Part shown: positions 24,037 through 38,475 of the stretch, in pieces
Numbering within the stretch: the stretch's first letter is position 1
Layout: every line of letters begins with the position of its first letter
Source of the DNA: Acidimicrobiia bacterium
GTDB taxonomy: Bacteria; Actinomycetota; Acidimicrobiia; Spongiisociales; Spongiisociaceae
Length of the DNA stretch: 38,769 bases
Reading direction: 5' to 3'
NCBI GenBank assembly: GCA_021296345.1
Contig: JAGWAN010000020.1
Span: 44,437 to 83,205, forward strand
Made by a program: the position numbers and the translations under genes
The notes under the pieces: generated by a model
The model's input: the letters and a program-made list of their open reading frames with translations, nothing else
The model's database searches: none
What the model was told of the DNA's origin: nothing

Positions 24037-25875
24037 CTACTCGACCGTGACGCTCTTCGCCAGGTTCCGCGGCTGGTCGATATCCCGGCCTAGACGGCGG
24101 GCTACGAAGTAGGCGAGCAGCTGGAGGGGTATCGCGGCCAGGATCGGGGAGAAGAGGTCGGTGGTCCGAGGGATCCGCAGCACATGGTCGGCAACCGTTC
24201 CTATCTCCTCGTCGTCTTCATAGGCGACCGCGATGACCAGGCCGCGGCGGGCCTTGACCTCCTGGAGGCCGAGCATGGCCTTGCTGTGCACGTCCTGCTG
24301 GGTGACCACCGCTACCACCGGGGTGCCTTCCGAGATCAGGGCTAGCGTCCCGTGCTTAAGCTCGCCGGCCGGCATCGCCTCGGCATGGATGTAGGAGATC
24401 TCCTTCAGCTTGAGCGCGCCCTCCATGGCCGAGGCGAGGTCAAGGCCCCGACCGATGAAGTAGGCGTCGCGGGATAATGCCAGGACGTCCGCCAGGCGGG
24501 CGACTTTCTCCATGTCCTCCAGCACGCGGGCCGCCTTGCCGGGAAGCGTCCGCAATTCGGCCACCAGCTCGCTCTCCGACGTCGGGGAGAGCATGCCCCG
24601 CCTGCGGCCGAGCTCCAGGGCCAGCAGGCTCTCCCCCACCAGCATCGCCACGTACGCCTTGGTCGAAGCAACCGAGATCTCGGGACCGGCCCATGTGTAC
24701 AGGACATCGTCCGCCTCCCGGGCCAGACTCGATCCGACCACGTTGGTCAAGGCCAGCAGGCGGGACCCGTGCCCGCGGGCCAGGCGGGCGGCGGCCACCG
24801 TGTCGGCGGTCTCTCCCGATTGGCTGATGGCCAGAGTCAGGGATCTGTCGCGGAACAGCGGTTTGCCGTAGCGGAGTTCGTGGGCGAAGGCGACCTCGCC
24901 GGGGATGCCGGCCAGCTGCTCGAACAGGACCCGGCCCACTAAGCCGGCGTGATAAGCGGTGCCACAGGCGGTGATCCAGATCCGGTCGATCGCCGCCGGA
25001 TCCCGATCCGACCATTCCAGGCCCTCCATCGCCACCTGTTCACCCCCGTCCGCGCTCGGCCGGATCCGCGCCCCCAGGGTCCGGGAGATCACGTCGGGTT
25101 GCTCGTGAATCTCCTTGAGCATGAAGTGGTCGAATCCTCCCTTTCTCACCGAATCGGTCTCCCATTCGGCGGTGAACGGTTGCTTCCGGACAGGACTGCC
25201 GGTGATGGTTTCGAGCGTGGCGCCGTCGCTGGTGACGGTGGCGATCTCCCCGTCCTCCACCAGCAGGAACTCCCGGGTGTACTCGAGTACCGCCGGGATG
25301 TCAGATGCCAGAAAGTTCTCCCCCTCGCCTAGGCCCACTACTAGCGGGCTGATCATGCGGGCCGCCACGATGCGATCAGGCTGGTGGGAGGTCATCGCCA
25401 CCAGCGCGTAGGCGCCGTGCGCCTGGCGGATGGCCCGGCGGACCGCCTCGGTCAGGTCTCCGTCAAAGGCGAGGGCCACCAGATGGGCCAGAACCTCGGA
25501 GTCCGTGTCGGACCGGAAGGCAACCCCACCGGCTTCGAGCCGGTCTCGGAGTGGCCGGAAGTTCTCCACTATCCCGTTGTGCACGACCACGAAATCGCCG
25601 GTCGCGTCGCAGTGGGGATGGGCGTTGCGGTCTGATGGAACCCCGTGGGTTGCCCACCGGGTGTGTCCTATGCCGGCGTGACCACCAAGGGGAGACCGAT
25701 CCACACGTCCGATAAGCCGGGCGAGCTTCCCCTCCGCCTTGGCGATGGCCACCTTCCCCCGGCCGGCGACCGCTAACCCGGCGGAGTCGTATCCCCGGTA
25801 CTCGAGCCGGGCCAGGCCGTGCATCAGAACGTCCTGCGCCTGGCGTGGACCCACATAGCCGACGATTCCGCACAT
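24037..25875 (-). CDS. glmS: glutamine-fructose-6-phosphate aminotransferase (isomerizing)
   Basis: Makes glucosamine 6-phosphate from fructose 6-phosphate and glutamine for peptidoglycan. The 612-residue enzyme starts MCGIVGYVG, C2 being the N-terminal nucleophile of the glutaminase domain. GHTRWATHGVPS and VVHNGIVENF follow. The two SIS domains carry ITACGTAYHAG, LAISQSGETADT and the C-terminal segment ending DIDQPRNLAKSVTVE. ATG 25875 has GGGAGG (25886-25881) 5 bases upstream. It lies downstream of glmM, the next enzyme of the pathway, behind a long leader. Confidence 0.96.
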   Translation of the reverse strand: MCGIVGYVGPRQAQDVLMHGLARLEYRGYDSAGLAVAGRGKVAIAKAEGKLARLIGRVDRSPLGGHAGIGHTRWATHGVPSDRNAHPHCDATGDFVVVHNGIVENFRPLRDRLEAGGVAFRSDTDSEVLAHLVALAFDGDLTEAVRRAIRQAHGAYALVAMTSHQPDRIVAARMISPLVVGLGEGENFLASDIPAVLEYTREFLLVEDGEIATVTSDGATLETITGSPVRKQPFTAEWETDSVRKGGFDHFMLKEIHEQPDVISRTLGARIRPSADGGEQVAMEGLEWSDRDPAAIDRIWITACGTAYHAGLVGRVLFEQLAGIPGEVAFAHELRYGKPLFRDRSLTLAISQSGETADTVAAARLARGHGSRLLALTNVVGSSLAREADDVLYTWAGPEISVASTKAYVAMLVGESLLALELGRRRGMLSPTSESELVAELRTLPGKAARVLEDMEKVARLADVLALSRDAYFIGRGLDLASAMEGALKLKEISYIHAEAMPAGELKHGTLALISEGTPVVAVVTQQDVHSKAMLGLQEVKARRGLVIAVAYEDDEEIGTVADHVLRIPRTTDLFSPILAAIPLQLLAYFVARRLGRDIDQPRNLAKSVTVE

Positions 25876-25969: not shown

Positions 25970-26288
25970 GGCGGTAGCAATCGCCGGGCGGCGTGTGCGG
26001 CCAGATGTGCCGGACGGCCCGAGGACCGCATCCCCCCGGCCGGACCCGGGAAGGGGCGCGCCACGTGCCGCTCACACGCTTCCACCCCGGCCCGGTCTCT
26101 GTCACCCCGGTTGCCCGTGGCCTTTCGTCCGAACCGTCACGACCGTGGAAGGGCCGAGAGGGCATCCGCCGAATGCTCGATGATCCCTCTTCCTCGTCAC
26201 CCCGGATCGGCGAGCCGATGGCCGGGGCCTGGCGCTTGAAGATACGGTTGTCCGTGATCGGTTGTCGGATCCAGGTTAGCCCCGATCC
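25970..26288. other. non-coding stretch between glmM and glmS
   Basis: With the hairpin-rich leader this gap is 450 bases, far longer than the others in this cluster. The frames open across it show no recognisable protein. On the minus strand TATCTT (26244-26239) is a weak -10 candidate. An 8-base direct repeat CGGTTGTC occurs twice near 26245-26267. It may hold a long leader or a small RNA. Confidence 0.4.
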
Positions 26289-30240: not shown

Positions 30241-31500
30241 CCAAGATAGCCCGATCTCTTTCAGTGGGCTCCCTCCCCCGGCGCGCCGGCGGAGGTATTC
30301 GGTTACCAGCCACCCAGTGACGAGACCGCTCAGGACGGCCACCGCGATGACCGGGATGCGAAAGCTACCGGTCCGGTCGATCCACCAGCCGGCTAGGGCG
30401 ATACCCGACATGGCGCACCAGGCCGCGGCCGTCAGACCACCTGAGAAGGCCCGCACCGCCAGCCGCGGTTCCAAACCCTGGCCGGCCAGGTGGCCCAGTA
30501 GCCCCCATATCGGGTAGTTGAAGAACCCGAATCCCACGGCCGCCACCATCAGGCCCGCGTACGACCAGGTCAGCACGAGAACAATGAGGCTGGTGGCGAA
30601 GACGAGGGAGATTACTCCCATGACCAGCACGGGCGATACCCGATCCGACCAGGCGCCCATGACCACGGCCGCCATCAGTCCGACCGACGATGCGATCCAC
30701 CAGAGCGTGGCCACCGCTAACGGCGACACCCCGAACTCGTCCACCGCCGTGGCCGACATGTAGCTGACGAACGTGAAGCCGCCGACGCCGGCCGCGATGC
30801 TGAGCAGGACCACGATCCGACCGCTCCGGACTGCCCAGGTATCTCTCCATCCCCGTCTCCGCACGGCTGTCCGGGCAAGGCAGGGATTCGAGGCGGGAGT
30901 ACGGGGTAGCAGCGCCAGGACGGCCAGCGCAGCCGCCACTGACACCGCAGTTGTGATCACGAAGGCCAGCCTCCATTCGTCCTGTCCGGCGAGGAAGAGC
31001 GCGAACGCACCATTGATACCGCCTCCGACTCCGGCACCCGAGCCCGCCACCACCATGACCCGACCACGGGAGGAAGGCTTCACCACGCGGGCGATGAGGC
31101 GTACCGACGCCGACCAGCTGATCGGCGCGAGCAGACTGATGAGCACGACCGACCCGGCCAGAGCGACCGGCGTCCTGGCCCACACCGCCACCAGGAACCC
31201 GACCACGCAGACCGACAGCGCGGCCAGAATGATTCCCCGTAACGGGAACACATCCACGACCCTGACTCCCACAGCGGCGCCCAGACCGTAAGCGAGAAGT
31301 CCTGAGGACACGGCCAGACCGAGGGTGCCGTAGCCGGACCCGAAACTTTCCCCGATGCGCGGGAGGAGGGCGGGAACCAGACCGTTGCCGAAACCGTGGG
31401 TGACCATGATCACTGCACAGAAGACGACCGCTGCCCTGCCCGGCCCGATTAACTCCTCAGGCGCGTGGCTCGGGGCGCCGGCGCCGCCCTCGGTCGTCAA
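30226..31500 (-). CDS. MFS transporter
   Basis: Twelve-segment major facilitator of 424 residues. Signs are the alternating hydrophobic helices from AAVVFCAVIMVTHGFGNGL on, a long basic central loop (TAVRRRGWRDTWAVRSGR), and a GAWSDRV motif in the second half typical of the MFS loop between helices 8 and 9. The substrate is not evident. The start is TTG 31500, with GGAGAG (31512-31507) 6 bases upstream; TTG 31527 is also in frame. It overlaps the end of the preceding FDH subunit gene by 44 bases, so it appears to belong to that operon, and could move formate or a related acid (inference). Confidence 0.78.
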   Translation of the reverse strand: MTTEGGAGAPSHAPEELIGPGRAAVVFCAVIMVTHGFGNGLVPALLPRIGESFGSGYGTLGLAVSSGLLAYGLGAAVGVRVVDVFPLRGIILAALSVCVVGFLVAVWARTPVALAGSVVLISLLAPISWSASVRLIARVVKPSSRGRVMVVAGSGAGVGGGINGAFALFLAGQDEWRLAFVITTAVSVAAALAVLALLPRTPASNPCLARTAVRRRGWRDTWAVRSGRIVVLLSIAAGVGGFTFVSYMSATAVDEFGVSPLAVATLWWIASSVGLMAAVVMGAWSDRVSPVLVMGVISLVFATSLIVLVLTWSYAGLMVAAVGFGFFNYPIWGLLGHLAGQGLEPRLAVRAFSGGLTAAAWCAMSGIALAGWWIDRTGSFRIPVIAVAVLSGLVTGWLVTEYLRRRAGGGSPLKEIGLSWPGVQ

Positions 31501-32446
31501 TCCTGGCTCTCCGGAGAATCTCGTCAATGGGCGTCACGGCTAGATCGCCGACCTCCTGAACGTACTCGTATCCGAACCGTCCCTTGATACAGAGGTGTCC
31601 GGAAGTGACCGAGTGGTCCATCGGCGAGGTGACTTTCACGATCCGGTTGTCCTGGACGTGGAGGTCTAGGTTGCAACCGACCCCGCAGTACGAGCAGATG
31701 GTGCGCGTAACGGTCTGGGAATCCTCCTCCCACATGCCTGCCTGGCGCAGCTCGTACTCGCTGCGGAACATGAGGGCGCCGGTGGGACACACGCCTATGC
31801 AGTTTCCGCAGAATACGCAGGCCGAGTCGGTCAGTCCGGTGTCGAATTCGGTCGAGATGCGGGCGTCGAAGCCGCGGCCGGCCACCGCGATGGCGAAGGT
31901 GTTCTGGGCGTCCTCCCCGCAGGCCTCCACGCACTTGTAGCAGAGGATGCACCGGGAGTAGTCCCGCACGTAGAGCTCGTTGTCCACCTTGACCGGCTGG
32001 TGAACGGTCTCGGCTACGGTCCCCGGCCCGATCTGGTGATGGCCCGCCTTACGCCGGTCGCGGTCGACGGCCGGATCAGCGGGCGGGCCGTAGCGGTCGG
32101 GATCGCAGCCGTAACGGTCCATCCACGCCACCGTCTCCTCGTCGACCAGGCCCAAGTCGACCGTGGACGCCAGGAACTCGTAGACCATCTTGCGGGAGTG
32201 GCGCACCCTATCGCTGTCGGTGGCCACCTCCATTCCGTCCTCGGCCGGGCGGCTGCAAGAGGGCACCAGCGTGCGGTTGCCCTCCACCTCCACCACGCAT
32301 ACCCGGCAGACGTTGACCGGGGTCAGGTTGTCCAGGTAGCAGAGGGTGGGCTGGTCGTTGCCCAGGGCCCGGCATGCGTCGAGGATGGTCGATCCGTCCG
32401 GGACCTTAACGGTGGTCCCGTCGACAGCGAGCGTGACTTCAGCCAC
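31457..32446 (-). CDS. NuoG/FdhA-like iron-sulfur subunit carrying the Moco-subunit [4Fe-4S] domain
   Basis: Electron-transfer subunit of the formate dehydrogenase, 329 residues. The N-terminal plant-type ferredoxin domain has [2Fe-2S] ligands C36, C47, C50 and C64. Two bacterial-ferredoxin [4Fe-4S] sites follow: C166/C169/C172/C176 and C210/C213/C216/C220. Last comes C251/C254/C258 with C286 in HLCIKG, the [4Fe-4S] cassette that normally begins the molybdopterin-binding subunit of FDH. The protein then stops after a basic tail, and the rest of that subunit is encoded at 36253-34319. ATG 32446 overlaps the NuoEF gene by 8 bases. In FdsA-type enzymes all of this is one polypeptide. Confidence 0.88.
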   Translation of the reverse strand: MAEVTLAVDGTTVKVPDGSTILDACRALGNDQPTLCYLDNLTPVNVCRVCVVEVEGNRTLVPSCSRPAEDGMEVATDSDRVRHSRKMVYEFLASTVDLGLVDEETVAWMDRYGCDPDRYGPPADPAVDRDRRKAGHHQIGPGTVAETVHQPVKVDNELYVRDYSRCILCYKCVEACGEDAQNTFAIAVAGRGFDARISTEFDTGLTDSACVFCGNCIGVCPTGALMFRSEYELRQAGMWEEDSQTVTRTICSYCGVGCNLDLHVQDNRIVKVTSPMDHSVTSGHLCIKGRFGYEYVQEVGDLAVTPIDEILRRARIDDRGRRRRPEPRA

Positions 32447-34220
32447 GAGATCGCTCCAGCAGGCCCAGATCGATGACCGACCGGATCGCAGTCGACGCAG
32501 TGTGCCCCAGCCCGCAGATCGAGGCGTCCATCATCACCCGGGCGACCTCCTCGAACAGATCCTCGTCCAGCGGCTCGCCACCGTGGGGGCGAGCCAGCAA
32601 CTCCTCCTGGCGAACGGTACCGACCCGGCAGGGTACACACTGGCCGCAGGACTCGTCCCGGAAGAAGCGGGCGATCCGCCTGCTTATGTCCGGGAAGTCG
32701 GTACGGTCGTCGAACACCAGGACCACGCCGGAACCGAGAGTGGCTTGGCGAGATCGGGCATCCTCGAAGGTCAGCGGCATGTCGAGATGGTCCTCACCCA
32801 CGAACAGGCCGGCCGCGCCACCGAGCATCACCGCGCCTATCCGGCCGTTTCCGGTCACGCCCCCGGCCAGGTCTATCAGCTCTCCCAATGTCGTGCCGAA
32901 CTCCACCTCGTACACGCCGGGCCGCGCCACGGCGCCCGCCAGGCAAAACAACTTCGGCCCGGTCGACTCCCCGGTTCCGATCTCCGCGAACGCGGCTCCG
33001 CCCTCGAGCACTATGTCGAGCACGTTGATCAGGGTTTCGACGTTGTTGATCACCGTGGGGCGTCCGAACAGGCCCACCTGGGTCGGAAAGGGGGGCTTGT
33101 TGCGCGGCTCCCCCCGCTTACCCTCGATCGAGTTCATCAGAGCGGTCTCCTCACCGCAGATGTACGCGCCTCCACCGCGCCGGATCTCGATCTCGAACGC
33201 GCGGCCCGAACCGGCCACGTTCGCGCCGAGCAGGCCCTCTGCCCGGGCGCTGTCGATGGCGTTCTGGAGACGGGACTGGGCCAAGGGGTATTCGGCGCGT
33301 ATGTACAGGTAACCGCGCTCGGCCCCGACGGTCAGGCCGGCGATGGTCATCGACTCGATCACCGCGAAGGGGTCACCCTCCATCAGCGCCCGGTCCTTGA
33401 AGGTGCCCGGTTCCGATTCATCGGCGTTACAGATCAGGTAGTGCGGCATGTCGGGTGACCGGGCCACCGCCTCCCACTTGATCCCCATCGGGAAAGCGGC
33501 ACCCCCACGGCCCCGGAGGCCGGATGCCTTGATCTGGGTAAGAACCCGATCCGGCCCGATCTCGACGGCTCGGGCCAGAGCCTGGTAACCGCCGACGTCC
33601 CGGTAGCCCTCCAGGGAGGTCGGATCGACCGTGCCAATGCGCTTGAGCAAGCGCAACGACGGATCGCCTGCCTGCGGCGCGATGGGAGGGACTTCCTCGA
33701 TGGACCCGCCTGCCAGCACCTCCACGACCCGGTCGTGGGTAGCGCCGACCAGCACGGTGTCCTCCTCGCCGGCCCGCTGGAAGAAGACGGCCGGGGCCTG
33801 GTCGCACTGACCCAGGCACGGACTGGGATGCGCATCGGGGCGCCCTTCCAGGTCGGCCAGGATCCCGGCACCGCCCATGGTCCGGCAGGCCACGTCGTCA
33901 CACACATGAGCCACCCGAGTCGGTCGTTCCTCCAAAGACAGCAGGGCGTAGAAGCCGGCCACGCCGTACGCCTCCGCGGGGGGGACGAGAAGCCGCTCGC
34001 AGATGTAGTTGAGCGCCCCTGTGCTAACCCATCCGACCGCGTCGTTCACCGCGTGGAGCGCCGGGAGCAATAGATGGCGGCTCTCCACCGAATGGCGATA
34101 GCCACCGAACACCACGCGCCGGTCGGCCGGTTGCGTAGGCTCGCCGTCCCCGGACGGGGAGGGAGGTCCTAGCAACGCATCCACAGCAAACCGCTCCGCT
34201 GCGGTTGGCTCGGCGGACAT
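32439..34220 (-). CDS. formate dehydrogenase NuoE-NuoF fusion subunit (NAD-reducing diaphorase)
   Basis: FMN-dependent subunit passing electrons from the iron-sulfur clusters to NAD+, 593 residues. The N-terminal NuoE-like domain has [2Fe-2S] ligands C107/C112 (CDDVAC) and C135/C139 (CLGQC). The NuoF-like domain has the FMN/NAD segments GLRGRGGAAFPMGIKW, NADESEPGTFKDR and GGGAYICGEETALMNSIEG. The C-terminal [4Fe-4S] site is SCGQCVPCRVGT with a distal ICGLGHT cysteine. ATG 34220 lacks a good ribosome binding site. Fifteen bases upstream an in-frame ATC follows AGGAGA with 6-base spacing and might be the true start. Such NuoE-NuoF fusions are known in NAD-linked FDH and hydrogenase diaphorases. 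Confidence 0.9.
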   Translation of the reverse strand: MSAEPTAAERFAVDALLGPPSPSGDGEPTQPADRRVVFGGYRHSVESRHLLLPALHAVNDAVGWVSTGALNYICERLLVPPAEAYGVAGFYALLSLEERPTRVAHVCDDVACRTMGGAGILADLEGRPDAHPSPCLGQCDQAPAVFFQRAGEEDTVLVGATHDRVVEVLAGGSIEEVPPIAPQAGDPSLRLLKRIGTVDPTSLEGYRDVGGYQALARAVEIGPDRVLTQIKASGLRGRGGAAFPMGIKWEAVARSPDMPHYLICNADESEPGTFKDRALMEGDPFAVIESMTIAGLTVGAERGYLYIRAEYPLAQSRLQNAIDSARAEGLLGANVAGSGRAFEIEIRRGGGAYICGEETALMNSIEGKRGEPRNKPPFPTQVGLFGRPTVINNVETLINVLDIVLEGGAAFAEIGTGESTGPKLFCLAGAVARPGVYEVEFGTTLGELIDLAGGVTGNGRIGAVMLGGAAGLFVGEDHLDMPLTFEDARSRQATLGSGVVLVFDDRTDFPDISRRIARFFRDESCGQCVPCRVGTVRQEELLARPHGGEPLDEDLFEEVARVMMDASICGLGHTASTAIRSVIDLGLLERSRG

Positions 34221-34318: not shown

Positions 34319-36253
34319 TCATGCCGGATAGTTTGCCACGGAACGAACCCCGGTTCGATTCTCAACCCCCTCCTCCAAAGGCTCGATCCGGACCGCGGTG
34401 GCCTTGAACTCGGCGGTGCCCGACTTGGGATCCCACGCGTCGATGGTGAGCAGGTTCACGTCCACCTCGTCGGGATCGTGGACGGCCATGAAAGCCAGGC
34501 CGGCACGGAGCGACCGATCGAACAGTACCGGTGCCTCGACGGATCCCCGGCGCGAGACGACACGGACACGGTCGCCCTCGGCCACGCCGAGGGCGGTTCC
34601 GTCCGCGGGCGCCACCTCTACGGCGACCGCCGTCCTCAGCGGGGATGAGTAACCCCGGGACTGGACCCCGGTGTTGTAGGAGTCGAGCCGGCGACCCGTG
34701 GTTAGCCGGATCGGGTACTCCTCGCTCAGCTCGTCCACCGGCGGGGCCCACGGCGTCGCGAAGAATGGGGCCGGGTCACGAGGCAGCGGATCGTCCCAGA
34801 GATCGCCGTGGAGGAACAGTGTGCCGGGATGGTCCTCGCCGGTACACGGCCACTGCAGCCCGCCCACGTCGGCGAGCCGCCGGTACGACATCCCGGCGTG
34901 CAGGGGCGACAGGCTGCGCAACTCGTCCCATACCTCTTCGGCGGTTGGATACCCCCAACCCCGGCCCATCCGTTCGGCGAGGGCCGAGATAATGTGCAGG
35001 TCATCTCGAGCGTCCCCCGGAGGTTCGAGAGCCTTGCGGACCCGCTGCACCCGCCGCTCGGATGAGGTCACCGTGCCGTCTGTCTCGGCCCATCCGGCCG
35101 CCGCCGGGAACACCACGTCGGCCAGCTCGGCCGTCCTGGTCATGAATAGGTCCTGCACCACCATGAACTCCAGCCCGCGCAGGATGCTGCGGGCATGGTC
35201 GGAGCGGGCCTCCGACTGGGCCGGGTTCTCGCCGATCACGTACAGAGCGGTTATCTCTCCGTGCTCCATCGCCTCCAGCATCAGCGACAGGTGCTTGCCG
35301 GCCTGGTTGGGCACGGGCCGGCCCCAGAGGGCCTCGAACTTGCCGCGTGAGACCGGGTCCTCGATGTCCTGAAAACCGGGCAGCCGGTTGGGCAGCGCGC
35401 CCATGTCGCCGCCGCCCTGGACGTTGTTCTGGCCGCGGATCGGAACCAATCCCGATCCGTAGCGACCCACATGGCCGGTCAGGAGGGCCAGGTTTATGAG
35501 GGCCAGGACATTGTCGGTGGCGTTGTGATGCTCGGTGATGCCCAGCGTCCAGCAGATCTGGGCCTGCTCCGCGGTGGCGTAGTCGTGGGCCATGCGGCGG
35601 ATAACTTCGGGGGGCAAGCCGGTGATATCGGCACCCCTCTGCAGCGTCCAGGGTTCCACCGACTCGGCATAGGCATCGAAACCCACCGTGGCGTGCTGGA
35701 TGAACTCCTTGTGATGCAGGCCGGACGTGATTATCTCGCGCCCGACGGCGTTGGCCAGCGCGATGTCCGAACCCACCTCCAGCCCCAGCCAGGCATCGGC
35801 CCACATGGCCGAGGTGGTCCGGCGCGGGTCAACCGTGTACAGCTTAGCGCCGTTGCGGACCCCCTTCATCAGGTGATGGAAGAAGATCGGATGAGCCTCC
35901 CGGGCATTGGAACCCCAGAGCAGGATCACGTCCGTGGTCTCGATCTCCTCGTAGGAACAGGTCCCGCCTCCTACTCCGAACACTGCCGCCAGACCGGCGA
36001 CGGAGGGAGCGTGTCAGGTGCGGTTACACGAATCTATGTTGTTCGACGCCATGACCAGCCTGGCGAACTTCTGGGCCAGGAAGTTCATCTCGTTGGTCGC
36101 CTTGGAGCACGAGAACATGGCATAGGCACTACCGGTATGGCGGCTCAGCCCGGCCGCCGCCCGGTCGAGCGCCTCGTCCCATGTGGCCGGCACCAACTCG
36201 CCGTCGCGTCGCACGTACGGCGTGGTCAATCGGGGAAGCGTCACCTTCGGCAT
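34319..36253 (-). CDS. selenocysteine-containing formate dehydrogenase catalytic subunit (split alpha subunit)
   Basis: Molybdopterin oxidoreductase that oxidises formate to CO2. Two adjacent frames (36253-36014 and the part below) are one reading frame interrupted by TGA at 36016-36014. The residues around it, NRT-U-HAPSVAGL, align with the FDH active site RV-U-HGPSVAGL of E. coli FdhF. Read as Sec (U80), the protein has 644 residues. Further FDH segments: LLWGSNAREAHPIFFHH, DPRRTTSAMWADAWLGLEVG, RGQNNVQGGGDMGALPNRLP, ADVVFPAAAGWAETDGTVT and a C-terminal molydopterin dinucleotide-binding domain. It begins at MPKVTLPRLTTPYVRR, after the usual [4Fe-4S] cassette, which is encoded in the gene at 31457-32446. 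ATG 36253 has AAGGAGG about 8 bases upstream. Confidence 0.92.
35985..36016 (-). promoter_or_regulatory. UGA selenocysteine codon and bacterial SECIS hairpin
   Basis: After the TGA (36016-36014) the minus strand forms GTCGCC (36001-35996), loop GGTCT (35995-35991), GGCGGC (35990-35985), a 6-bp stem with one GU pair. The loop GGUCU and its position, nucleotides 19-23 after the UGA, are the same as in my recollection of the E. coli fdhF SECIS, where SelB binds. The bases straight after the UGA (CACG) also match. Confidence 0.85.
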
Positions 36254-36290
36254 TCCATCACCTCCTTTCCATCACTCCACCAACGGCCGT

Positions 36291-36689
36291 TCACTCCGCC
36301 TGTGTACCACTGACAGTAGACGGCGACGGGATCTTGTTCACGCAGAACTCGTTGCCGTCGGGATCGACCATGACTGCCAGCGTGTACTCGTCCTCCGTGA
36401 CCGTCTCCACGATTCTGCCACCAAGTCGTACCGAACGGGCGAGGATCATGTCGAAGTCCTTCTGGTTCGAACCCTCGATGTCGAAGTGGACCGGACTCTT
36501 GTCGGCCGTGACACGGTCCACCCGCTGGAGAACCAGATCGCACCCGGTTAGTACCGGCCCCATGAACAGGTAGTTGTCGAGCCGCCGCCCGGGCGCCAGG
36601 CCGAGAAGCGGACCCCAGAAGGCGGCCGATCGATCGAGGTCGAGACAATCTATGACCAGGTACCGGATCGAGGCGACCGGCTCGTCCAC
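36291..36689 (-). CDS. VOC-family (glyoxalase-like) protein
   Basis: Single-module protein of 132 residues from GTG 36689. The VOC fold shows as two beta-alpha-beta repeats: IRYLVIDCLDLDRSAAFW and CDLVLQRVD, then VHFDIEG and the closing VMVDPDGNEFCVNK. It resembles the Glyoxalase_6 type common in actinobacteria; substrate unknown. The frame is open to ATG 36737, which would overlap fhs by 32 bases. GTG 36689 starts 16 bases after the fhs stop and just before the fold, though its ribosome binding site is poor. It sits between fhs and the FDH gene, so it is probably co-transcribed. Confidence 0.7.
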   Translation of the reverse strand: MDEPVASIRYLVIDCLDLDRSAAFWGPLLGLAPGRRLDNYLFMGPVLTGCDLVLQRVDRVTADKSPVHFDIEGSNQKDFDMILARSVRLGGRIVETVTEDEYTLAVMVDPDGNEFCVNKIPSPSTVSGTQAE

Positions 36690-36705
36690 CGCCGCCGCCG
36701 AGAAG

Positions 36706-38475
36706 TCAGAACAAGCCGATGATCTTGCCGTCTTCATCGATGTCTACATTCATGTACGCCGGCCGGGCCCCTAGTCCCGGCATCGTGCGGATCTCGCCCA
36801 GGAGCACCACGAGGAAGCCGGCGCCGACCGACGCTCTGACCTCGCGAACCGGCACGGTGAACCCGCGCGGCCGCCCTTTCATAGCGGAATCGTGCGAGAT
36901 CGACAGGGGAGTCTTGGCCAAGCAGATCGGCAAGTTCCTCATCCCGGCCTGCTCGAAGTCGGCGATCTGGCGCGCCGCGGCGGTGGAATAGTCGACTCCG
37001 CCGGCGCCGTAGATCTCCCGGCAGACGGTCTCGATCTTTTCCTTGATCGACCGGTCCGACGGGTAGAGGAAACGGAAGTCCGCAGGCCGTTCGCAGGCGG
37101 CCACCACGGCTTCGGCCAACTCCAGGGCTCCACGCCCGCCATCCGCCCAGTGGCTGGACGTGACCGCCGATAGCGCTCCCGCCTCCCGGGCGGCCCGCTT
37201 GACCACCCGGCGCTCGTTCTCCGTGTCGGTCGGGAAGGTATTGACCGCCACCACCACCTCGATACCGAAGCGGCGAGCGTTCTCGATGTGTGCCACCAGG
37301 TTGACGAGGCCGGCTTCCAGCAGGGGTAGGTTCTCCTCCGTGTAGGCCTTAGCGAGCGGCCGGCCCGCCACCACTCGAGGGCCGCCGCCGTGGGTCTTGA
37401 GCGCCCGAACCGTGGCCACCAGGACGACCGCATCGGGCTTCAGACCGGAGGCCCGGCACTTGATGTTGAAGAACTTCTCCATACCCATGTCGGCCCCGAA
37501 TCCCGACTCGGTAACCACGTATTCCCCAAGTTGGAGCGCCACCCGGTCGGCCAGGATCGACGAGTTGCCATGGGCGATGTTGGCGAACGGACCCGCGTGG
37601 ACGAACGCGGCCTGGCCTTCGAGCGTCTGCATGAGCGTGGGATGTAGCGTGTCCTTCATTAGGACGGTCACCGCGCCGCCCACGCCCAGGTCGTCGAGGG
37701 TGATGGTGTCGCCGGCGGTGTTCGCTCCGACCACGATCCGTCCGCAGCGGGCCCGAAGGTCGCGGAGCGCCGAGGCGTAGTCATGGCCGTCGGTGAGCGC
37801 CAGAATCGCCATCAACTCGGAAGCCACGGTGATGTCGTAACCGGTCTCACGGGGCCGGCCGTCGATACGTCCGCCCAGGCCCAGCACCACGTTGCGCAGT
37901 GCCCGATCGTTGACGTCGACCACCCTGCGCCACTGGGCACGGAACATGTCGATATTGAGCCGCCCGAGCCCTATCGCATCGAGTTGAGCGTCGCTCATCC
38001 GCCCCTCGTGGTACCAGCGGGCGTCCATGGCCGCCGCCGCCAGGTTGTGGGCCACGCTGATGGCATGCATATCGCCGGTCAGGTGCAGGTTGAACTCGTC
38101 CATGGGGATGACCTGGCTGTAGCCACCCCCCGCTGCCCCGCCCTTGATCCCGAAAGTAGGTCCCATCGAGGGCTGGCGGATGGCGGCGACGGCCTTCTTC
38201 CCGAGGAGACCCAGTCCTTGAACCAGACCGATCGTGGTGGTGGTCTTGCCTTCGCCGAGAGGTGTGGGGGTGACCGCGGTGACGTCGATGTACTTGCCGG
38301 GCGAACGGGCGCCTACCCGCTTCAGAATGTCGAGGTGGACCTTGGCCTTGGTCGATCCGTACGGAATCAGCTCGTCGGCACGGACACCGATCGACTCGGC
38401 GATCTCGGCGATCGGTGTGACCGGAGCCGCCTGAGCGATCTCGAGGTCGGAGGGGAACCTAGCGGAAGAACTCAT
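36706..38475 (-). CDS. fhs: formate-tetrahydrofolate ligase
   Basis: Makes 10-formyl-THF from formate, THF and ATP. The 589-residue protein has the P-loop-like TPTPLGEGKTTTT (about 69-81) and conserved IRQPSMGPTFGIKGGAAGGG, LTGDMHAI, FANIAHGNSS, ESGFGADMGMEKFFNIKCR and TRxxGLGARPAY-like C-terminal segments. ATG 38475 is preceded by GGAGA about 5 bases upstream. As the first gene of a run that continues with the VOC protein and FDH subunits, it gives the module two routes for formate: assimilation into the folate pool or oxidation by FDH. No folD is in the window. Confidence 0.95.
   Translation of the reverse strand: MSSSARFPSDLEIAQAAPVTPIAEIAESIGVRADELIPYGSTKAKVHLDILKRVGARSPGKYIDVTAVTPTPLGEGKTTTTIGLVQGLGLLGKKAVAAIRQPSMGPTFGIKGGAAGGGYSQVIPMDEFNLHLTGDMHAISVAHNLAAAAMDARWYHEGRMSDAQLDAIGLGRLNIDMFRAQWRRVVDVNDRALRNVVLGLGGRIDGRPRETGYDITVASELMAILALTDGHDYASALRDLRARCGRIVVGANTAGDTITLDDLGVGGAVTVLMKDTLHPTLMQTLEGQAAFVHAGPFANIAHGNSSILADRVALQLGEYVVTESGFGADMGMEKFFNIKCRASGLKPDAVVLVATVRALKTHGGGPRVVAGRPLAKAYTEENLPLLEAGLVNLVAHIENARRFGIEVVVAVNTFPTDTENERRVVKRAAREAGALSAVTSSHWADGGRGALELAEAVVAACERPADFRFLYPSDRSIKEKIETVCREIYGAGGVDYSTAAARQIADFEQAGMRNLPICLAKTPLSISHDSAMKGRPRGFTVPVREVRASVGAGFLVVLLGEIRTMPGLGARPAYMNVDIDEDGKIIGLF

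Follow-up and report, generated by a model that had tools for sequence, protein, structure and literature searches.

A predicted selenocysteine formate dehydrogenase with its molybdenum-proximal [4Fe-4S] domain encoded by a separate gene in an Acidimicrobiia bacterium

The fdhABC genes and their neighbourhood

Three consecutive genes on the minus strand, here called fdhA, fdhB and fdhC, lie in the window, by which we mean the whole 38,769-nucleotide stretch of an Acidimicrobiia bacterium genome that was analysed (contig JAGWAN010000020.1). The first gene, fdhA (34319–36253), was assigned from its domains, alignment and structural model to the selenocysteine (Sec)-containing catalytic core of a formate dehydrogenase (FDH), with Sec80 and His81. 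When its inner TGA (36014–36016) is read through, fdhA forms a single frame of 644 residues running from 36253 to 34319, in which Sec is residue 80. The frame starts with an ATG at 36253–36251, preceded by AAAGGAGGT at 36268–36260, is intact after the inner TGA, and has a TGA as its own terminator at the 34319 end. The second gene, fdhB (32439–34220, minus strand), encodes a fused NuoE/NuoF-like diaphorase of 593 aa (PF01257, PF01512, PF10531 and PF10589), composed of a 2Fe-2S thioredoxin-like part, a 51K FMN domain, an SLBB part and a 4Fe-4S part. The third, fdhC (31457–32446, minus strand), overlaps fdhB by 8 bases and encodes a NuoG/HoxU-like Fe-S protein of 329 aa with PF13510, Fer4 and PF04879 domains.

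Upstream of fdhA lie a gene for a glyoxalase-fold protein (36291–36737, minus strand; PF18029) and, beyond it, fhs, which encodes formate-tetrahydrofolate ligase (36706–38475, minus strand; PF01268, 824 bits). Among the named homologous loci (the best 80 of 122), 17 of 80 had an fhs match in the same orientation anywhere within the locus, and the glyoxalase-fold gene was present in 7 of 80. The fhs gene would be tied to the fdh genes through their C1 context. A plasmid search gave matches of less than 60% identity in all 1462 records. Elsewhere in the window, a full-length match to the glmS ribozyme (RF00234, 86.7 bits) was found at 26079–26247 on the minus strand, upstream of glmS (24037–25875).

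What kind of enzyme does fdhA encode? A domain search found Molybdopterin (PF00384) and Molydop_binding (PF01568) domains in FdhA, whereas Molybdop_Fe4S4 (PF04879) was not found there and was present in FdhC. The best solved relatives of FdhA are formate dehydrogenases. FdhA can be aligned with E. coli FdhF (formate dehydrogenase H) starting near residue 57, so that U80 falls on Sec140, and U80-H81 and the RGQNNVQG motif align with Sec140-His141 and Arg333 of FdhF. Sec/Cys-His and Arg are the catalytic residues of formate dehydrogenase. A single-chain AlphaFold2 model built from a 28-row alignment had a mean pLDDT of 76.8, with values below 50 in the Sec loop (77–80) and in other stretches such as 264–285, and it matched E. 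coli FdhF (1fdi) with a query-normalised TM score of 0.85. The first-pass annotation had proposed that the TGA at 36016–36014 joins two frames at the FDH active-site Sec/Cys position, and that FdhF carries Sec at the equivalent residue; the coordinates, the read-through frame and the alignment of Sec140 with Sec80 agree with both proposals. Its description of the product as one FDH catalytic subunit was right as regards the catalytic core, but the Fe4S4 domain belongs to the product of fdhC, which lies two genes further downstream. FdhA alone scored below the cut-off of TIGR01591, the NCBIfam Fdh-alpha model (617.6 against 666.25). From its domain content, 36253–34319 is predicted to encode the catalytic core only and not a whole FDH alpha subunit.

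The in-frame TGA and the hairpin that follows it

Is the TGA of fdhA a selenocysteine codon, or does it mark a gene in decay? In a listing of open reading frames of at least 80 aa made with translation table 11, fdhA appears only as a 554-aa frame from 35983, from which we infer that standard gene calling would split the gene at its active site, as the first-pass annotation had warned. The same listing would suit an fdh gene in decay that has acquired a nonsense mutation; such a mutation is very hard to reconcile, however, with the distribution of this codon among homologues. We compared 110 homologous loci, made up of 80 named loci (the best 80 of 122) and 30 further loci from related genomes, the latter partly repeating the named species and including the window itself. 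TGA stands at the Sec codon position in 109 of the 110 loci (79 of the 80 named loci and all 30 further loci), and TGC in the remaining one. Relatives with a sense codon other than Cys or Sec at this site had been put forward as the sign of a nonsense mutation; the 110 loci contain 109 TGA codons and a single Cys codon.

The nearest named homologues of the window's fdhA, among the best 80 of 122, come from Acidimicrobiia MAGs, and the record titles in this set name Acidimicrobiia, Pseudonocardia, Actinomycetospora, Acidobacteria, Gemmataceae and Chloroflexi, with the MAG labels as deposited. The locus with TGC, that of Marinitenerispora sediminis (L115), has the three-gene set with Cys and has GGCCTG where the others have GGTCTG; this is likely to represent a Sec-to-Cys conversion. 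In three further genomes (G054, G084 and G066), we observed remoter, longer FDH homologues with frames of 965–1076 aa, 43–44% identity and one in-frame TGA each, the frame of G066 additionally holding a TAA. These are perhaps fused Sec FDHs.

The TGA is followed by a putative SECIS stem-loop of 6 bp (35985–36001, minus strand), in which 36001–35996 would pair with 35990–35985 around an apical GGUCU loop at 35991–35995. The first-pass annotation had described this loop at +19 to +23 after the TGA and likened it to that of E. coli fdhF; we located it at 35995–35991, and E. coli fdhF (NC_000913) has a GGUCU loop at the identical offset. The folding energy of the hairpin was not outstanding, either for a 39-nt stretch (−12.3; shuffle mean, −12.43; z 0.05) or for a 32-nt stretch (z 0.19), and this unremarkable energy is a second point in favour of a nonsense mutation. 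Because the folding energy is no better than that of the shuffles, a hairpin in the window sequence alone proves nothing, and the assignment as a predicted SECIS is decided by comparison, through conservation and covariation.

The 109 TGA loci yield 76 distinct sequences, every one of which has GGTCTG. Might this GGTCTG have been kept, together with the stem, merely through conservation of the protein sequence Val-Ala/Val-Gly-Leu? V85, G87 and L88 are indeed invariant in 28 aligned FdhA sequences, as this explanation would predict, but the synonymous site is fixed as well: GGT is used here in all TGA sequences, as against 14.7% of the 3999 other Gly codons that follow the Sec codon in the TGA genes of the named loci. 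A wider comparison covered an evenly sampled set of 396 genomes of the phylum, in which a pattern allowing TGA, TGC or TGT gave 83 sites; these are pattern matches and may include other subfamilies than that of the window's fdhA. GGTCT was present at 69 of the 70 TGA sites, against 2 of the 13 Cys sites (counted by eye; Fisher 6e-11), and the other 11 Cys sites had another Gly codon. In addition, the wobble bases at positions 18 and 30 change together, and we consider it highly improbable that protein-level conservation accounts for the pattern.

The stem was compared across 65 distinct sequences. All 390 of 390 cells of the stem pairs were standard and 20 of these cells, belonging to two stem pairs, were altered on both sides. 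The percentage paired, the count of double-changed cells and the covariation score were each higher than in any of 500 shuffles, and 1 of 500 attained as many pairs with a double change. As many further pair types arose in 472 of the 500 shuffles, and this measure is therefore no evidence. When the stem was slid along the alignment, the resulting structures were 14.6–83.1% paired, and the closest of them (+3; 83.1% paired, 22 double-changed cells) had a score of 0.157 versus 0.322 for the proposed stem. On a FastTree phylogeny built from residues beyond the SECIS region only, pair 18/30 underwent at least five changes, between C-G and G-C, with other states absent from the sequences, and pair 20/28 was altered mostly on one side, via U-G. 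Independent pairs on supported branches were altered jointly in 3 of 3 cases, which are too few for a sign test.

Selenocysteine machinery in the genome and selA in the phylum

The source genome (2.83 Mb in 82 contigs, 95% complete) contains a tRNA-Sec scoring 76.6 bits (cut-off 47), which ARAGORN calls tRNA-SeC with anticodon TCA. The ARAGORN call carries weight because the tRNA-Sec model also passes the cut-off, with 48.1 bits, at a second place that ARAGORN calls tRNA-Ser. The selB gene (313.6 against 242.25) adjoins selA (435.4 against 267.9) on contig C55, and selD (L017, G000:C14:113964-114890; 371.2 against 125) holds one in-frame TGA. This TGA falls within SPGGG-U-TSK, which we take to be the usual Sec/Cys site of SelD, so that SelD is probably a second selenoprotein of this genome. 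FdhD is encoded on the window's own contig. The first-pass annotation had asked for a search for selA, selB, selD and tRNA-Sec and had held that absence of this machinery would favour a nonsense mutation; all four were found over their cut-offs, and this, the intact frame after the TGA and the covarying stem make a decaying gene extremely unlikely.

A second in-frame TGA in the same genome would also be expected if TGA were read as some other residue, by stop-codon reassignment or a near-cognate tRNA and without SelB, and the selD codon taken alone would fit such a reading. However, fdhA itself terminates at TGA, the TGA of selD sits in the presumed Sec/Cys site, and a tRNA-Sec with anticodon TCA is present; moreover, reassignment would need neither a fixed loop nor a covarying stem, both of which were seen. 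We regard it as very unlikely. Given the conservation of TGA and loop, the machinery and the stem covariation, we rejected the nonsense mutation, the reassigned TGA and the protein-level conservation alike, and it is close to certain, on comparative sequence evidence, that the in-frame TGA of fdhA encodes selenocysteine. The SelB-dependent decoding that had been proposed for this organism is supported by the presence of tRNA-Sec, selA, selB and selD together with the conserved TGA and GGTCTG and the covarying stem.

The accompanying statement that such decoding is uncommon in actinobacteria found no support: selA, the only gene searched for and our proxy for Sec use in the 396-genome phylum sample, was over its cut-off in 226 of the 396 genomes. 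The genus Symbiobacterium is now placed outside the Actinobacteria. It is one of the examples in PMC1794560, which, in the part of its text that bears on this point, names the Actinobacteria among three selenoprotein-rich phyla. Among 99 related genomes, the source genome included, selA was over its cut-off in 84. A close FDH homologue and selA were both present in 65 of these genomes, with FDH only in 5, selA only in 19 and neither in 10 (p 0.0013), where the count of close homologues includes fragments and five genomes with only homologues below 50% identity were scored as lacking one. The co-occurrence is real but loose. The 5 of 99 genomes with a close FDH homologue in which no selA match was found were G001 (96% complete), G086 (90%) and three at 68–77%. 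Both G001 and G086 are nearly complete and possess a TGA-containing fdhA homologue; assembly gaps or a real loss are possible reasons for the absence of selA from these two.

A catalytic unit apparently divided between FdhA and FdhC

The [4Fe-4S] domain that FdhA lacks was found in its partner. The Mo-proximal [4Fe-4S] domain PF04879 lies at the C-terminus of FdhC (residues 245–297), and residues ~1–53 of FdhF, with CxxCxxxC and LCLKG, are without a counterpart in FdhA and align with this C-terminus, which carries CSYCGVGC and LCIKG. TIGR01591 is likewise divided, with model positions 52–672 on FdhA and 1–51 on FdhC (57.3 bits). Against Rhodobacter FdsA, FdhC 3–298 aligns with residues 24–305 and FdhA 23–624 with residues 325–932. 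This arrangement is conserved: 69 of the named loci (from the best 80 of 122) extend at least 3000 bases downstream, and in all 69 fdhA is followed, in the same orientation and within 5.5 kb, by fdhB and by both the N-terminal and the Fe4S4 part of FdhC. Among the 11 named loci with a shorter downstream sequence, 2 show all three parts and 9 end too early to judge. An upstream in-frame CxxCxxxC was found in none of the 80 named loci (best 80 of 122), one of which ends at a contig end.

How does this system compare with known enzymes? FdhC and then FdhA align in order along FdsA of Rhodobacter capsulatus, which is presumably a Cys enzyme at its active site; FdsA is one chain, whereas the window encodes two. 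The structure used for this NAD+-dependent FDH was 6tg9. By its domains alone, FdhB provides the NuoE/NuoF-like diaphorase of an NAD-dependent Fds-type FDH, and fdhABC looks like a split FdsA with a fused NuoE/NuoF diaphorase, probably NAD-linked. E. coli FdhF serves hydrogen production and, in contrast to the window's FDH, retains its [4Fe-4S] domain in the same chain.

A closer counterpart is FDH3 (FdhA3/FdhB3/FdhC3) of Actinomycetospora chiangmaiensis DSM 45062, reported in 2020 (PMC7176365). In the account given there, FDH3 is called cytoplasmic and NAD+-dependent and has Sec in its alpha subunit, SECIS elements were sought with bSECISearch, all three FDH3 proteins were detected, and formate removal depended on selenite, with which formate accumulation was almost negligible, a result that applies to the three Sec FDHs of that organism jointly. 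The FDH3 subunits have 640, 614 and 316 aa, compared with 644, 593 and 329 aa in the window, and seven loci of other Actinomycetospora species share the window's three-gene set with TGA. From these sizes, the gene order and the homology to the seven other Actinomycetospora loci, the window's fdhABC is apparently the same system as FDH3. The main text of PMC7176365 contains neither "Fe-S" nor "iron-sulfur". In a limited search of the open literature, and in the parts of it that were available, we found no description of a split FdsA; likewise, nothing was found on a Sec formate dehydrogenase of Acidimicrobiia or on a sponge-linked FDH of this class. As the FDH alpha subunit is the top entry among the bacterial selenoprotein families tabulated in the relevant part of PMC5029168, Sec use here would add a member rather than a new kind. 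Measured against the published description of FDH3, as far as its main text goes, the sole additional feature is that the Mo-proximal [4Fe-4S] domain is consistently split off onto another subunit.

We propose, with a probability of about 0.96, that fdhABC encodes a soluble, probably NAD-linked Mo/W FDH with a SelB-inserted Sec80 and with its [4Fe-4S] cluster supplied in trans by FdhC. The NAD link, the solubility and the direction of the reaction are what we infer for the window's FDH. During translation of fdhA, SelB carrying Sec-tRNA-Sec would bind the GGUCU hairpin just past the UGA and insert Sec80, which, by analogy with FdhF, may bind the metal (Mo or W). FdhA would hold the bis-MGD cofactor, and the alignment suggests that the C-terminal domain of FdhC supplies the adjacent [4Fe-4S] cluster and the lysine of LCxKG in trans, so that FdhA and FdhC together would equal one FdsA-type catalytic subunit. 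Judging from the domains, electrons from formate would travel via the clusters of FdhC to the FMN in FdhB and would then reduce NAD+. A likely role would be to oxidise formate that C1 metabolism produces, alongside formate-tetrahydrofolate ligase.

With a table-11 gene caller, this FDH would be cut at its active site, as the open reading frame listing suggests, and an annotation that considers only FdhA leaves out the [4Fe-4S] part of the catalytic unit. We also considered a bolder and rather doubtful reading, namely that these enzymes form a distinct and widespread class of Sec FDHs, whose catalytic subunit is severed at the junction of its [4Fe-4S] and Mo domains and whose Sec half is exchangeable. 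If this were true, the cluster and the lysine beside the active site would lie on the subunit at the diaphorase side, the Sec half could be synthesised, receive its cofactor and be swapped independently, and the split would perhaps be an adaptation by which aerobes keep a selenoenzyme functional. Whether the Mo-proximal cluster can work from a different chain is a question for which the conserved split provides a natural test.
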